A stretch of 64,000 nucleotides of DNA from Alphaproteobacteria bacterium (lineage in GTDB: Bacteria; Pseudomonadota; Alphaproteobacteria; SHVP01), in contig VGES01000001.1 in NCBI GenBank assembly GCA_016869765.1, forward strand, positions 62,001 through 126,000, given 5' to 3'. Made by a program: the position numbers and the translations under genes. The notes below the pieces were generated by a model that did no database searches, was not told the origin of the DNA, and saw nothing but the letters and a program-made list of their open reading frames with translations. Below, one piece after another: positions 9,826 to 16,430 of the stretch (position 1 is the first letter of the stretch; each line of letters begins with the position of its first letter).

Positions 9826-11946
9826 ATGTTCGATATTCATCGCAAGGAAATCATGTGGGGCGGTCGCCGCCTGGTGCTCGAAACCGGCCGATTGGCGCGG
9901 CAGGCCACCGGAGCCGTGCTGGTCACCTACGGCGACACGACGGTCTTGTGTACCGCGGTCGCCCAGAAGTCGCCGCGGCCGGACATCGATTTCTTCCCGC
10001 TGACGGTCAACTATCAGGAAAAGACGTTTGCCGCAGGCAAGATTCCCGGCGGCTTTTTCAAGCGTGAGGGGCGGCCGAGCGAAAAGGAAACGCTGACCTC
10101 GCGCCTCATCGACCGGCCGATCCGCCCGCTCTTCGTCGATGGATTTCGCAACGATACCCAAGTGATCTGTACGGTTCTCTCCCACGACTTGGAGAACACG
10201 CCTGACATCGCGGCGTTGGTCGGAACATCCGCGGCGCTGACGCTTTCGGGGATTCCGTTCCTTGGGCCGATCGGCGGCGCGCGCGTTGGCTACATCAACG
10301 GCGAATACCGTCTCAACCCGACGCCTGCCGAAATGGCGGAATCGAAGCTCGATCTGGTCGTCGCCGGCACCCAGAAAGCGGTGATCATGGTCGAGTCCGA
10401 AGCTCATGAACTGAGCGAAGAGACGATGCTGGGCGCCGTGATGTTCGGCCATCAATCGTTCCAGCCGGTGATCGACTTGATCATCGCCCTGGCCGAGCGC
10501 TGCGCGAAGGAGCCCTGGGTGGTGCCCGAGGACCCGCAAGCAGCGGCTCTGGCGAAGCGGGCCGAACAGGTGATCGGCGCCGACCTTCGCGCCGCCTATG
10601 CCGAGCGCGCGAAGCAGGCGCGCAGCGAGTTGCTTGCCAAAGCGAAGGAAAAGATGGCGGCGGCGCTGGCCCAGGAAAGCATCGACGCTTCGGCCGGCGA
10701 TCTGATGAAGGACCTGGAAAAGAACATCGTCCGCAATCAGATTCTCGACACCGGTATCCGCATCGACGGACGCGACACCAAGACCGTACGGCCAATCGAG
10801 TGCGAGACCGACATTCTGCCGCGAACCCATGGTTCGGCGCTGTTCACGCGTGGCGAAACCCAGGCCCTGGTCGTCACGACGCTCGGGACCGGCCAGGACG
10901 AACAGATCATCGATGCGCTCGAGGGCGAATACCGCGAGCGCTTCATGCTGCACTACAATTTTCCGCCGTATTCGACGGGCGAAACCAAGTTCATGTCCTC
11001 TCCGGGCCGCCGTGAAATCGGCCACGGCAAGTTGGCGTGGCGGGCCGTACGTCCGTTGCTGCCCGACGCCGAGAAGTTCCCCTACACGATTCGCGTGGTC
11101 TCCGAGGTCACCGAATCGAATGGGTCGTCTTCGATGGCGTCGGTGTGTGGCTCGTCGCTTTCGTTGATGAGCGCCGGTGTTCCCCTCAAGGCGCCCGTCG
11201 CCGGTATCGCGATGGGGCTCATTCTCGAGGATCGCGGCTTCGCCGTGCTGTCGGACATTCTCGGCGACGAGGATCATCTCGGCGACATGGACTTCAAGGT
11301 GGCCGGGACCGAGCACGGCGTCACAGCGCTGCAGATGGATATCAAAGTCAACGGCATAACCCGCGAGATCATGCAGACCGCGCTCGCCCAGGCGCGCGAC
11401 GGTCGCCTGCACATCCTCGGGGAGATGAGCAAGGCGCTCAATCGCGCCCGCGACTCGATCAACCGCTACGCCCCGCGCATCACGACACTGACCATCCCCA
11501 AGGACAAGATCCGTGAAGTGATCGGAACCGGGGGCAAGGTCATTCGCGAGATCTGCGAGGTGACGGGCACCAAGATCGACATCGAGGATGACGGGACGAT
11601 CAAGGTCGCGAGCGCCGATTCGAAGGCGGCCGAGGCGGCGGTGCAGTGGATTCGCAACATCGTGGCCGAACCAGAGATCGGAGTCATCTATCGTGGCAAG
11701 GTCGTCAAGGTCGTCGATTTTGGTGCATTCGTGAACTTCATCGGCAACCGCGACGGCTTGGTCCATATCAGCGAGCTCGCGCCGCGGCGCGTGGCCAAGG
11801 TTGGCGACGTCGTCAAAGAGGGTGACGAAGTATGGGTCAAGGTCCTGGCGCTCGATGATCGCGGCAAGGTGCGCCTGAGCATGAAGGCGGTGGACCAACA
11901 AACCGGGCAGGCTGCCGCCGCGGCCGAGGCTCCGGCCGGTTCGTGA
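9826..11946 (+). CDS. pnp: Polyribonucleotide nucleotidyltransferase (PNPase)
   Basis: Phosphorolytic 3'-5' exoribonuclease of the RNA degradosome. The 706 residues have two RNase PH domains (about 10-145 and 320-545) around an all-alpha linker, a KH domain ([20 protein letters not shown]) and a C-terminal S1 domain ([18 protein letters not shown]). [21 protein letters not shown] and the GETQ / [10 protein letters not shown] motifs of the active site are present. RBS GAGGGG lies ahead of the ATG. Confidence 0.98.
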
Positions 11947-12031
11947 GCGAACTGGGCTCCCCGGCCGGCCCCTTTGGGTTTTGTGGAATCGTTCTATATT
12001 TACCGGTGGGACCTTTTGGCGAGGGCGCCGG

Positions 12032-13429
12032 TTGAAAGCTATCAACACTCTTAAGATCTCGGGTTTCGAGGTTCTGCCGCTGGTCGAGGGCGGCAAGGGC
12101 ATTTCTGTATCGAACGGCGAGAGCTCCGGCGCCTGGGCCGCCGCCGGCGGGGTCGGAACGTTCTCGGGCGTAAATGCCGACTCCTACGACGTCGACGGAC
12201 GTCCGGTTCCGCAGCGCTATTTCGGCCGGACGCGGGTCGAGCGCCACGAGGAACTGATCGCGTACGCGATCAAAGGTGGCATCACCCAGGCCAAGATCGC
12301 CCACGACCTGAGCGGGGGCCGCGGTCCGATCCACATGAACGTGCTGTGGGAAATGGCGGCCGCCGAACGGGTTCTCGTGGGCGTGCTCGAAGGGGCGAGC
12401 GGCCTGATCCACGGGGTCACCTGTGGTGCCGGGATGCCCTACCGCTTGGCGGAGTTGGCGGCCCGTTATCGCGTTCACTACTACCCGATCGTTTCGTCGG
12501 CCCGGGCGTTCCGCGCGCTGTGGAAGCGCGCCTACCATAAGTTTTCGGAGCGACTGGGCGGGGTCGTGTACGAGGATCCCTGGTTGGCGGGTGGACACAA
12601 CGGTCTTTCCAATAGCGAAGATCCCGAAAAACCAGAGGATCCTTACCCGCGCGTCGTCGAATTGCGTCGTGTCATGCGGGAGTTTGGATTGGATCAGGTC
12701 CCAATCGTGATGGCCGGTGGGGTCTGGTTCCTGCGAGAGTGGGAGGATTGGTTCGACAATCCCGAACTCGGGCCTGTGGCATTTCAGTTCGGCACCCGTC
12801 CGCTGCTGACGAAAGAAAGCCCCATCTCCGATGCATGGAAGCGTCGCCTGATGACGCTCAAGGAAGGGGATGTCTATCTCAACCGCTTCAGCCCGACCGG
12901 AATGTGGTCGAGCGCGGTCGAGAATGAATTCTTGCGCGAAATGAAGGAACGCTGCGACCGCCAGATCGCTTACACCCGTGAGCCGATCGGCGACCACGCA
13001 GAATCCTTCGGCACTGGTCCGCGCCATCGTCCCGTCTTCGTCACGGCCCACGATCTCGCCCGGGCCCGTGAATGGGTGGCCCAGGGTTACACCGAGGCGA
13101 TGCGAACCCCGGACTCGACGCTGATCTTCGTCACTCCGGAGAAAATGCGCGAGATTCGGACCGATCAGGTCGAGTGCATGGGTTGCTTGAGCGCTTGCCT
13201 GTTCTCCAACTGGTCACAGGATGAGGGCCATACGACAGGAAAGAAGGCCGATCCGCGGAGTTACTGCATTCAGAAGACGCTGCAGACGATCAGCCACAGC
13301 GACGACGTCCAGCACCAGCTGATGTTCGCGGGCCACGCCGCCTTTCGGTTCAGCAGCGACCCGTTTTACTCCAACGGTTTCATCCCAACGGTCAGACAGC
13401 TCGTCGAACGTCTGGTGACGGGAGACTGA
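12032..13429 (+). CDS. Nitronate monooxygenase-like flavoprotein with C-terminal cysteine cluster
   Basis: A 465-residue TIM-barrel flavoprotein of the nitronate monooxygenase / 2-nitropropane dioxygenase superfamily. LEGASGLIHGVTCGAGMPYRLAEL, the GGHNG motif (position of the catalytic histidine in the family) and VIMAGGVWF plus FQFGTRPLLT near the phosphate site support this. Unusually, the region near residue 380-420 carries ECMGCLSACLF and a further SYC, four cysteines in a CxxCxxxC...C pattern that could hold an Fe-S cluster. I use TTG 12032 (KAINTLKISG follows, as homologues begin); GTG 11981 is the alternative. One base separates its stop from the irr start. Substrate unknown. Confidence 0.85.
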   Translation: MKAINTLKISGFEVLPLVEGGKGISVSNGESSGAWAAAGGVGTFSGVNADSYDVDGRPVPQRYFGRTRVERHEELIAYAIKGGITQAKIAHDLSGGRGPIHMNVLWEMAAAERVLVGVLEGASGLIHGVTCGAGMPYRLAELAARYRVHYYPIVSSARAFRALWKRAYHKFSERLGGVVYEDPWLAGGHNGLSNSEDPEKPEDPYPRVVELRRVMREFGLDQVPIVMAGGVWFLREWEDWFDNPELGPVAFQFGTRPLLTKESPISDAWKRRLMTLKEGDVYLNRFSPTGMWSSAVENEFLREMKERCDRQIAYTREPIGDHAESFGTGPRHRPVFVTAHDLARAREWVAQGYTEAMRTPDSTLIFVTPEKMREIRTDQVECMGCLSACLFSNWSQDEGHTTGKKADPRSYCIQKTLQTISHSDDVQHQLMFAGHAAFRFSSDPFYSNGFIPTVRQLVERLVTGD

Positions 13430-13430
13430 G

Positions 13431-13868
13431 ATGGCGCGATCGACCCCGCCCGCTCGATCCTTCGCTTCGGCGCTCAATCGTCTGCGCGCCGCTGGCCTGC
13501 GACCAACGCGCCAGCGTCTAGCCCTCGCCAAGACGCTGTTCGACAAGGGGCCGCGCCATGTCACGGCCGAAGCCCTGCACGCCGAAGCCCTCGACGCGCA
13601 AATGCGGGTTTCGCTCGCAACCGTCTACAACACCTTGCACCAGTTCGTGCGGGTCGGCCTGTTGCGCGAGGTCATGGTCGATCCTGGGCGTTCGTACTTC
13701 GATACCAACGTCGCCGATCACCACCACTTCTGGCAGCCCGACTCGGCGCGCCTGACGGACATTCCGCCCGAGCACGTCGTGGTCAGCCGTATCCCCGCCC
13801 CACCCCTCGGTACCGAGGTCGGGCGCGTCGATGTCGTGGTCCGGCTGCGATCCAAGAAAGGCAAGTAG
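13431..13868 (+). CDS. irr: Fur-family iron response regulator Irr
   Basis: A 145-residue Fur-superfamily regulator. Residues 10-85 form the winged helix (GLRPTRQRLALAKTLF, VSLATVYNTLHQFVRVGLL). The ADHHHFW motif, with three adjacent histidines, and the absence of the CxxC zinc pairs of ordinary Fur point to Irr, the haem-responsive iron regulator of alphaproteobacteria that is active when iron is scarce. It follows the flavoprotein gene by one base and precedes rubrerythrin, whose promoter region contains an Irr-box-like palindrome. PerR is a less likely alternative. Confidence 0.88.
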   Translation: MARSTPPARSFASALNRLRAAGLRPTRQRLALAKTLFDKGPRHVTAEALHAEALDAQMRVSLATVYNTLHQFVRVGLLREVMVDPGRSYFDTNVADHHHFWQPDSARLTDIPPEHVVVSRIPAPPLGTEVGRVDVVVRLRSKKGK

Positions 13869-13888: not shown

Positions 13889-13939
13889 ATTGGAGTAATT
13901 CTAAACTATTGACAGACCCTCGAGGATTGCGCATATAAG
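13889..13939 (+). promoter_or_regulatory. Rubrerythrin promoter with Irr-box-like operator
   Basis: ATTGGAG-TAA-TTCTAAA at 13889-13905 resembles the iron control element bound by Irr (TTTAGAA...TTCTAAA half-sites; right half exact, left half imperfect). It lies directly upstream of TTGACA (13909-13914) and, after 17 bases, CATATA (13932-13937) or TATAAG (13934-13939). AT content is clearly higher than in the surroundings. Control by the adjacent Irr is inferred. Confidence 0.6.
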
Positions 13940-13985: not shown

Positions 13986-14405
<420 letters not shown>

Positions 14406-14430
14406 GACCCAAGCCCTCGATACTCTGCGT

Positions 14431-14455
14431 GAAGGGGGCCCGTGCGGCCCCCTTC
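14431..14455 (+). terminator. Strong hairpin after rubrerythrin
   Basis: GAAGGGGGCC, loop CGTGC, GGCCCCCTTC: a perfect ten-pair stem 25 bases after the rubrerythrin stop. It is followed by TAGTCTC rather than a T-run, so it is more likely an mRNA 3'-end stabiliser or partial attenuator between the abundant rubrerythrin message and the downstream genes than a full terminator. Confidence 0.55.
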
Positions 14456-14484
14456 TAGTCTCAACACGCTCCGCGGATGAACCG

Positions 14485-15834
14485 ATGAAAGAAGGCAGCC
14501 TGGAAGCTCCGGTTCGCCACCCCCTGGATTGGCAATCCGAATCTTTCGTCGATCTCGAGGCGCTCGATGCCGAGGTGCGTCGGGTCTTCGACATCTGCCA
14601 CGGCTGTCGTCGTTGTTTCAACCTGTGTGATTCGTTCCCGCGATTGTTCGATCTCGTCGATGCCTCGCCGTCCGGGGAGCTCGACGCAGTGGCGAGCGCA
14701 GACTTCAAGCCCGTGGTCGACGCATGCACGCTCTGCGACATGTGTTTCATGACCAAATGCCCCTACGTCCCGCCCCATGAGTTCAATCTCGATTTTCCAC
14801 ACCTGATGCTGCGTTATCGGGTTGCCGAGCGACATCACGGGTTGCGTCCGGGCATTGGCGAGCGTCAACTGACCGAGACGGACCGCAACGGTCGACTTGC
14901 GGGTCTCGCCGTACCGATCGCCAACTGGGCCTCGCGACGGGACAACACACTGACCCGTCCCATCCTAAACGGGATCGCCCATGTGCACCGCGACGTCGAA
15001 CTGCCGAAGTTCCACAGCCCGGCATTCGAGGCACGCTCGCACGAAGTGCCCGAGCGCAACACCGCGGCACCGGCGGCGCAGCGCAAGGCCGTGCTCTATG
15101 CGACCTGTTTCGTGAACTTCAACAACCCGGGCATCGGCGAGGCCGCGCGTGGCGTTCTCGCCAGGAACGGCGTGACCACCGAAGTCGTCTATCCCGAATG
15201 CTGCGGCATGCCGCAACTCGAGGGTGGCGAAATCGATGTCGTCGCTGCCAAGGCCAGGCGGGTGGCAGCGACCCTGCGGCTCTGGATCGACCAAGGGTAC
15301 GACGTCGTGGCCCTGACGCCCTCCTGCGCCCTCATGCTGAAATTCGAGTGGCCGCTCATCGTTCCGGATGACGGCAACATCAAGGTCCTGGCCAGCGCGA
15401 CGCGTGACGTCACCGAATATCTGGTCGATATCGCCAGGAAAGAAGGGCTGGCACCCGGGCTAAAGCCGCTAGGCGGTGGTGTTGCGGTCCATTTGGCCTG
15501 CCACGCGCGGGCGCAAAACATGGGGCCGAAGGCCGCCGAGCTGCTCAAGCTCATTCCGGAAAGCGCGGTCACGATCGTCGAACGCTGCTCGGGGCACGGC
15601 GGGTCGTGGGGCATCAAAGACCAAAACTTTCCGATTGCGGTCAAGAATGGCCGGCCTGCCGCACAGCGGGCGATCGACGCTGGGGCGACCTACGTCAGCT
15701 CCGAGTGCCCGCTGGCGGGAAAGCACCTGGTCCAGGTCATCGAGACGATCGATCCCGCGAAGCGCCTCGATCGCTCATTCCACCCCGTCGAGTTGTTCGC
15801 CAAAGCCTATGGTCTCGCGGTCGAGGGGGATTGA
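14485..15834 (+). CDS. Fe-S oxidoreductase with CCG domains (GlpC/HdrD-like)
   Basis: A 449-residue redox protein. The N-terminal part has two ferredoxin-type cysteine sets ([16 protein letters not shown] and [18 protein letters not shown]), each fit to bind a [4Fe-4S] cluster. The C-terminal half has two CCG-type regions ([12 protein letters not shown] near residue 236 and a second with [12 protein letters not shown] and [10 protein letters not shown], in which the usual CC is replaced by CSG). Such proteins pass electrons to or from small thiol or diiron partners. The rubrerythrin / this protein / DUF3501 trio is a recurring gene set, so it may be the electron donor to rubrerythrin. Confidence 0.88.
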
Positions 15835-15836
15835 TC

Positions 15837-16430
15837 ATGGGTGTGCCCGAGCGCCGCATCGATCGCCGAGACCTGATGACGATGGAGGACTACGGGCGCA
15901 TCCGTCAGGAAAAGCGTCGCGCGATTTCCGAACTCAAGAAGAACCGGCGGCTGGCGATCGGCCCCTTTGCGACGCTCTACTTCGAGAGTTACGACACGAT
16001 GTGGATGCAGATCCACGAGATGCTCTACGTCGAGCGCGGCGGCGAGGACCAGATCGCCGGCGAACTGGCGGCCTACAACCCGTTGATTCCGCAAGGAAAC
16101 GAGATCATCGCTACGCTCATGTTCGAGATCGATGATCCGGCCCGGAGAAGCGCCGAACTCCAGCGACTCGGCGGTGTCGAACACACCGTGGGCCTGAGAA
16201 TCGCGTCGGAACGCATCGTGGCGACGATCATCGGAGAGGAAGAGCGCACGCGCGACGATGGCAAGACGTCGGCTGTCCATTTCTTCCGCTTCGTCATGGA
16301 CGATCGCCAGGTCGCTTTGTTCAAGGACCAGGCGAATGAGGCGATGTTCTCGGTCACCCACCCCAACTATGGTCACCTCGCCATGATTCCGGCCGGCGTT
16401 CGCCAAGCCTTGATCGGCGACCTCAGTTGA
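15837..16430 (+). CDS. DUF3501 family protein
   Basis: A 197-residue cytoplasmic protein with no known biochemical role. RKKRR-like N-terminus (MEDYGRIRQEKRRAISELKK), then FESYDTMWMQIHEMLYVERGG, and a C-terminal FFRFVMDDRQVALFKD segment match DUF3501, a family regularly encoded next to rubrerythrin and a CCG-type Fe-S protein. The ATG lies two bases after the upstream stop, so the pair is co-translated. Its 3' end overlaps the convergent SH3-domain gene by eight bases. Confidence 0.82.
   Translation: MGVPERRIDRRDLMTMEDYGRIRQEKRRAISELKKNRRLAIGPFATLYFESYDTMWMQIHEMLYVERGGEDQIAGELAAYNPLIPQGNEIIATLMFEIDDPARRSAELQRLGGVEHTVGLRIASERIVATIIGEEERTRDDGKTSAVHFFRFVMDDRQVALFKDQANEAMFSVTHPNYGHLAMIPAGVRQALIGDLS

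Follow-up and report, generated by a model that had tools for sequence, protein, structure and literature searches.

Within the window, the 64,000-nucleotide stretch of alphaproteobacterial DNA analysed here, a gene of the nitronate monooxygenase (NMO) superfamily stands directly before the iron response regulator gene irr, which raises the question of what this enzyme does and whether its function is tied to Irr. The gene (12032-13429, + strand) starts with TTG and encodes 465 residues that its open reading frame, Pfam and PDB matches and fold identify as a FabX-like enzyme. The Pfam NMO match (PF03060) is above cut-off, and the annotation usually to be expected for such a protein is ‘nitronate monooxygenase’. 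The TGA stop at 13427-13429 leaves a gap of 1 base before the ATG of irr (13431-13868, + strand), whose Fur-family product matches NCBIfam IrrA NF045678 with 202 bits against a cut-off of 150. The initial annotation had described this one-base linkage correctly, and it had also recognised the motif ECMGCLSACLF followed by a further cysteine, which we locate as C382, C385, C389 and C412. From these it proposed an FMN/Fe-S enzyme in an operon with irr that could act either as an iron-dependent redox sensor or as a detoxifier of nitro compounds or radicals. Its remark that standard NMOs use only FMN is accurate, FabX of Helicobacter pylori being the published exception (PMC8626469).

H. pylori FabX (HP0773) belongs to the NMO superfamily and binds FMN as well as a [4Fe-4S] cluster, whose ligands are C300, C304, C308 and C320 (PMC8626469). 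In unsaturated fatty acid (UFA) synthesis by H. pylori, which has neither fabA nor fabB, the enzyme first removes hydrogen from decanoyl-ACP and then converts the product into its cis-3 isomer, with O2 as acceptor and formation of superoxide (PMC8626469). Across all PDB chains, FabX was the best match to the window protein by sequence and the sole strong one (phmmer 7e-20, profile 1e-24), with FabK next at 7e-4. The protein’s family shares a mere 20-22% or so of sequence identity with the H. pylori enzyme, and the FabX homologues reported in PMC8626469 are above 50% identical. A plain HMMER alignment to FabX is cut short before it reaches the cysteine domain by an insertion of ~65 residues (residues ~313-375; 12968-13156, + strand), which precedes the cluster domain, is absent from H. 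pylori FabX and its FabX-type relatives, and is built of beta-alpha units that are well modelled in the predicted structure. The FabX-type proteins of other Pseudomonadota classes match H. pylori FabX over their full length at 1.5e-99, and an hhalign comparison of 34 FabX-like with 4 FabX-type proteins gave an E-value of 8.5e-39 over residues 3 to 465, with both the cysteine domain and the catalytic His aligned.

For the fold, our conclusions rest on a structure model built from the diverse 34-row alignment (mean pLDDT 92.8, about 94 over the cysteine region) instead of an earlier model from a shallow alignment with pLDDT 38-46 around the cysteines. Foldseek searches with this model placed FabX entries at ranks 1-5 (E 8e-22 to 7e-20, TM up to 0.82 on the target), followed by the best FabK at 9e-15, with NMO and nitroalkane oxidase structures ranking below FabX and FabK. 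This ranking and the presence of the predicted Fe-S domain lead us to reject a classical FMN-only nitronate monooxygenase, and FabK is rejected on the ranking together with a TIGR03151 score of 20.6 bits against a cut-off of 453.

In the joint alignment, the FabX residues G22, G23, G25, N99, G127, I147, S149, E175, H182, G184, Q240 and T243 all have conserved equivalents. The FMN ligand N99 corresponds to N103 (12338-12340), E175, which contacts FMN and pantetheine, to E181 (12572-12574), and the catalytic H182 to H189 (12596-12598), all three invariant and on the + strand; the FMN contacts Q252 and T255 of the window protein are invariant or nearly so. The cluster ligands C300, C304 and C308 are matched by C382, C385 and C389 (13175-13177, 13184-13186 and 13196-13198, together 13175-13198, + strand) and C320 by C412 within YCIQ (13265-13267, + strand), giving the full motif CxxCxxxCx22C, and equivalents of the tunnel residues I321, L325 and F339 are also kept. 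The four cysteines are invariant in 110/110 homologues, comprising the 81 closest sequences, the window included, and 29 divergent alphaproteobacterial ones that are 46-67% identical; because they are kept in 81/81 and 29/29 of these respectively, they are not there by chance. As for the remaining cysteines, C131 is invariant among the 81 closest sequences and C308 of the window protein is not conserved. Additional cysteines lie within the cluster motif of three small-genome carriers (L179-L181; DCCTCLSAC, GCCCCLSEC and NCHCCLSAC). The aligned and invariant FMN and His residues and the four predicted [4Fe-4S] ligands thus bear out the FMN/Fe-S part of the initial annotation.

Around this common core, several positions have changed. 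Among the ACP-docking equivalents, R160 is invariant, K152 has become R, K159 is still K, the key ACP contact R164 is K or R in 28/34 sequences and T130 is Y or F. Y277 of FabX is Phe or Met in the alphaproteobacterial family, and the FMN-site residue M24 is replaced throughout by Lys within EGGKGIS (K22 in the window protein, 12095-12097), which may mark a different flavin tuning. Since R164, T130, Y277 and M24 are changed and a ~65-residue segment is added, the substrate or the electron acceptor may differ from those of FabX.

The distribution of the gene was surveyed in 387 Alphaproteobacteria genomes of completeness >= 90%. The FabX-like gene is present in 205 of these and fabA in 155 (called at E below 1e-60; the family cut-off matches 152), and only 2/387 hold both, against about 82 expected if the two were independent. 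In one of the two, the match is short, weak, unrelated and without the cysteines; the other (G364) has a divergent full-length copy. All 144 genomes with fabB are among those with fabA. As the genomes are related and not independent, a Fisher value for this exclusion is not usable as a probability, and because relatedness inflates significance we rely on the effect size and on short-range switches: the exclusion holds inside the mixed families f78, f96 and f107, in f96 even within one genus (g203), and G259 with the FabX-like gene and G386 with fabA and fabB are of the same genus. FA_desaturase-family genes accompany the FabX-like gene in about half of its genomes, and 103 of the 203 FabX-only genomes, which are by definition without fabA, show no FA_desaturase-family match. 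Neither a FabX-like gene nor fabA was found in 29/387 genomes, where a wider profile gave no match save one that was insignificant. Strong FabX-like matches of about 810-860 bits, without an adjoining irr, also occur in another class of the same phylum (L198-L202; families f165 and f184).

Neither fabA nor fabB reaches its cut-off in the window’s own genome (99.6% complete), which does encode a FabF-type KAS, a single member of the FA_desaturase family (L162) and a protein that matches FabI strongly, at 438.8 bits (cut-off 446). An w7 double bond in a C18 chain is the product expected when the bond is inserted at C10 and the chain is then elongated. The FabX-like gene is found in Skermanella aerolata (L057, 73%), which has no fabA above cut-off, and Skermanella cutis contains 73.5% C18:1 w7c/w6c (PMC11767975). 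From this we infer, across two species, a link between the FabX-like gene of the one and the w7-rich lipids of the other.

The two alternatives also share one chromosomal address. Gene order in the FabX-like carriers is infB-rbfA-truB-pnp-fabX-irr-rbr-CCG-DUF3501, and in fabA genomes it is infB-rbfA-truB-pnp-[fabI-fabB-fabA]-irr-rbr-CCG-DUF3501 with the bracketed trio on the opposite strand, as confirmed in L143. The most constant upstream neighbour of fabX is pnp (9826-11946, + strand, in the window), which adjoins it in 62/68 loci and 18/20 sampled families; irr adjoins fabX in 43/67 loci (missing in 24/67) and 15/20 sampled families, and it also adjoins fabA in 23/40 sampled fabA genomes. 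The one-base gap is peculiar to the window’s genome, the distance elsewhere being 5 to over 280 bp. Because fabX and fabI-fabB-fabA alternate at one locus, irr is best seen as a neighbour of the UFA locus and not as a functional partner. In some carriers a further gene separates pnp from fabX (L003, 4130-4900); in Stella vacuolata it reads like a glycerophosphodiester phosphodiesterase. Downstream of irr, in fabX and fabA genomes, lies a conserved cassette (13986-16430 in the window) of rubrerythrin, a GlpC-like CCG/4Fe-4S protein and DUF3501 that looks like an Irr-controlled peroxide/redox system. The adjoining rubrerythrin gives no evidence of FabX-made peroxide, since genomes with fabA have it to the same extent.

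We scanned the 300 bp upstream of the genes for TTTAGAANNNTTCTAAA, which we take to be the Irr-box, allowing <=3 mismatches. Such sites precede rbr in 43/49 loci, three of them perfect, and in the window the Irr-box-like palindrome lies at 13889-13905, upstream of the 139-residue rubrerythrin at 13986-14405. At the same threshold they were found before irr in 7/63, fabX in 1/99 and CCG in 0/46 cases, and in 0/257 control stretches. A weak site with 3 mismatches lies upstream of fabX in the window (11982-11998, + strand) and recurs in its nearest relatives L001 (3 mismatches) and L002 (4); it is not general. In these three genomes irr lies 1-15 bp from fabX, too close for a promoter of its own, which would account for a site ahead of fabX. 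It may have moved there with local co-regulation, as judged from the three genomes. The FabX-like gene is not a general member of the Irr regulon or a partner of Irr, having neither a conserved Irr-box nor conserved irr adjacency.

Taken together, the homology, the invariance of the catalytic and cluster residues, the mutual avoidance of this gene and fabA or fabB, and the shared locus make it very probable that the window protein belongs to a distinct alphaproteobacterial FabX subfamily, a putative FMN + [4Fe-4S] acyl-ACP dehydrogenase/isomerase that serves UFA synthesis and replaces fabA-fabB; on this basis we also infer the reaction, cluster type, substrate length and O2 acceptor. The enzyme would take a saturated medium-chain acyl-ACP (about C10) as substrate, from which H189 and FMN would remove two hydrogens to give trans-2-enoyl-ACP, and this would be isomerised to cis-3-enoyl-ACP in a bent tunnel. 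Elongation by a FabF-type enzyme would then yield UFAs of the omega-7 type, for instance cis-vaccenate. The four cysteines would hold a [4Fe-4S] cluster beside the tunnel, with electrons passed to and from FMN, and the insertion next to the cluster could allow a different acceptor to be used. The gene would thereby replace fabA-fabB in both function and position, at a locus of the form pnp-[fabX or fabI-fabB-fabA]-irr. Weighing against this reading are the low identity to H. pylori FabX, the changed residues and added segment, the desaturase-family gene of the window’s genome, the divergent copy that accompanies fabA in G364, and the 29 genomes with neither gene.

An iron/oxygen-responsive redox sensor, or a nitro or radical detoxifier, working with Irr as the initial annotation envisaged, would fit the one-base linkage in the window’s genome, the Fe-S site and the weak Irr-box-like site that the window shares with its two nearest relatives ahead of fabX. 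We consider such a role very unlikely, given that irr accompanies fabX less constantly than pnp does and stands beside fabA as well, that Irr-box-like sites mark rbr and not fabX, that the gene is distributed as a substitute for fabA, and that its nearest relative of established function is an enzyme of lipid metabolism. The homologue alignment that the initial annotation had suggested as a check retained the four cysteines throughout, and the irr linkage did not always travel with them.

Two further readings keep the enzyme within lipid metabolism. FabK is the next relative by fold and sequence and has the catalytic His and FMN site in common with FabX (PMC8626469), which would suit a FabK-like enoyl-ACP reductase, or another reducing FMN enzyme of fatty acid synthesis, in which the Fe-S cluster is the point of electron entry. 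This seems improbable to us: the genome already has its strong FabI match, FabK lacks the four cysteines, the cluster domain of FabX takes the place of the NAD(P)H domain (PMC8626469), and a reductase would leave the exclusion of fabA and fabB unexplained. More improbable still is that the enzyme is an acyl-CoA or acyl-ACP dehydrogenase using the same chemistry to make another product, for instance a modified lipid, with UFAs coming from desaturases or an unknown route and the fabA exclusion a phylogenetic coincidence. The desaturase-family genes in half of the FabX-like genomes and the differences at R164, T130 and Y277 are consistent with it, but it is opposed by the 103 FabX-only genomes that have neither a desaturase-family match nor fabA, by the persistence of the exclusion within families and within genus g203, and by the gene’s occupation of the fabI-fabB-fabA locus.

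While FabX itself is known, the subfamily described here stands apart by its low identity to the H. pylori enzyme, its insertion, its other cysteine spacing and its concealment under an NMO annotation. In the non-subscription literature searched, which included papers mentioning FabX, we found no description of such an enzyme in Alphaproteobacteria, nor of an irr-fabA link. The ‘nitronate monooxygenase’ annotation leaves open the source of the dominant 18:1 w7 lipids in fabA-less Alphaproteobacteria, among them numerous genera of the Rhodospirillales type and small genomes like those of Caedimonas relatives, and the FabX reading offers one specific, testable answer. The best reading is that roughly every second alphaproteobacterium makes its UFAs with an enzyme of the predicted FabX subfamily, and that a core step of a lipid pathway has been swapped in place at a fixed chromosomal address. 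Membrane unsaturation would then depend on an Fe-S flavoenzyme and therefore on iron and redox state. We add, tentatively and with more doubt than conviction, that a redox FabX rather than FabA starting UFAs in roughly half of the class may be the older state, fabI-fabB-fabA having later been swapped into the pnp-irr locus (or the reverse), and that the insertion would serve an acceptor other than O2 and so allow anaerobic function.

Compared with H. pylori FabX (PDB 7e1q, 9lt5), the window protein shares the NMO TIM barrel, the catalytic His, the FMN contacts, basic residues at several positions on the ACP side, the C-terminal four-Cys predicted cluster domain with its C-I and F-x-G motifs, and a genome without fabA and fabB. 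It differs in its cluster spacing (CxxCxxxCx22C, against CxxxCxxxCx11C), in the ~65-residue insertion ahead of the cluster, in the replacement of M24 by Lys, T130 by Tyr (or Phe), Y277 by Phe or Met and R164 mostly by Lys, and in its gene neighbourhood. The FabX-type proteins of other Pseudomonadota classes (L193-L195, L196) match it in a full-length profile comparison and have the same cluster cysteines and the CL-x2-C and FCI motifs, but they lack the insertion and have a first cysteine spacing of CxxxC (L193-L195) or Cx5C (L196). The latter, from a large-genome member of the phylum, represents a third FabX-type branch (CPTALECLSRC). FabK enoyl-ACP reductase (2z6i, 9pl0, 4iql) has the NMO fold, FMN and the catalytic His in common with the window protein, whereas it has no Fe-S domain, depends on NAD(P)H and catalyses the opposite reaction. 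FabA/FabB would be the functional analogue, with the same predicted pathway step and the same chromosomal locus by irr and pnp, although FabA/FabB is unrelated as a protein, acts on 3-hydroxydecanoyl-ACP and uses no redox cofactors.
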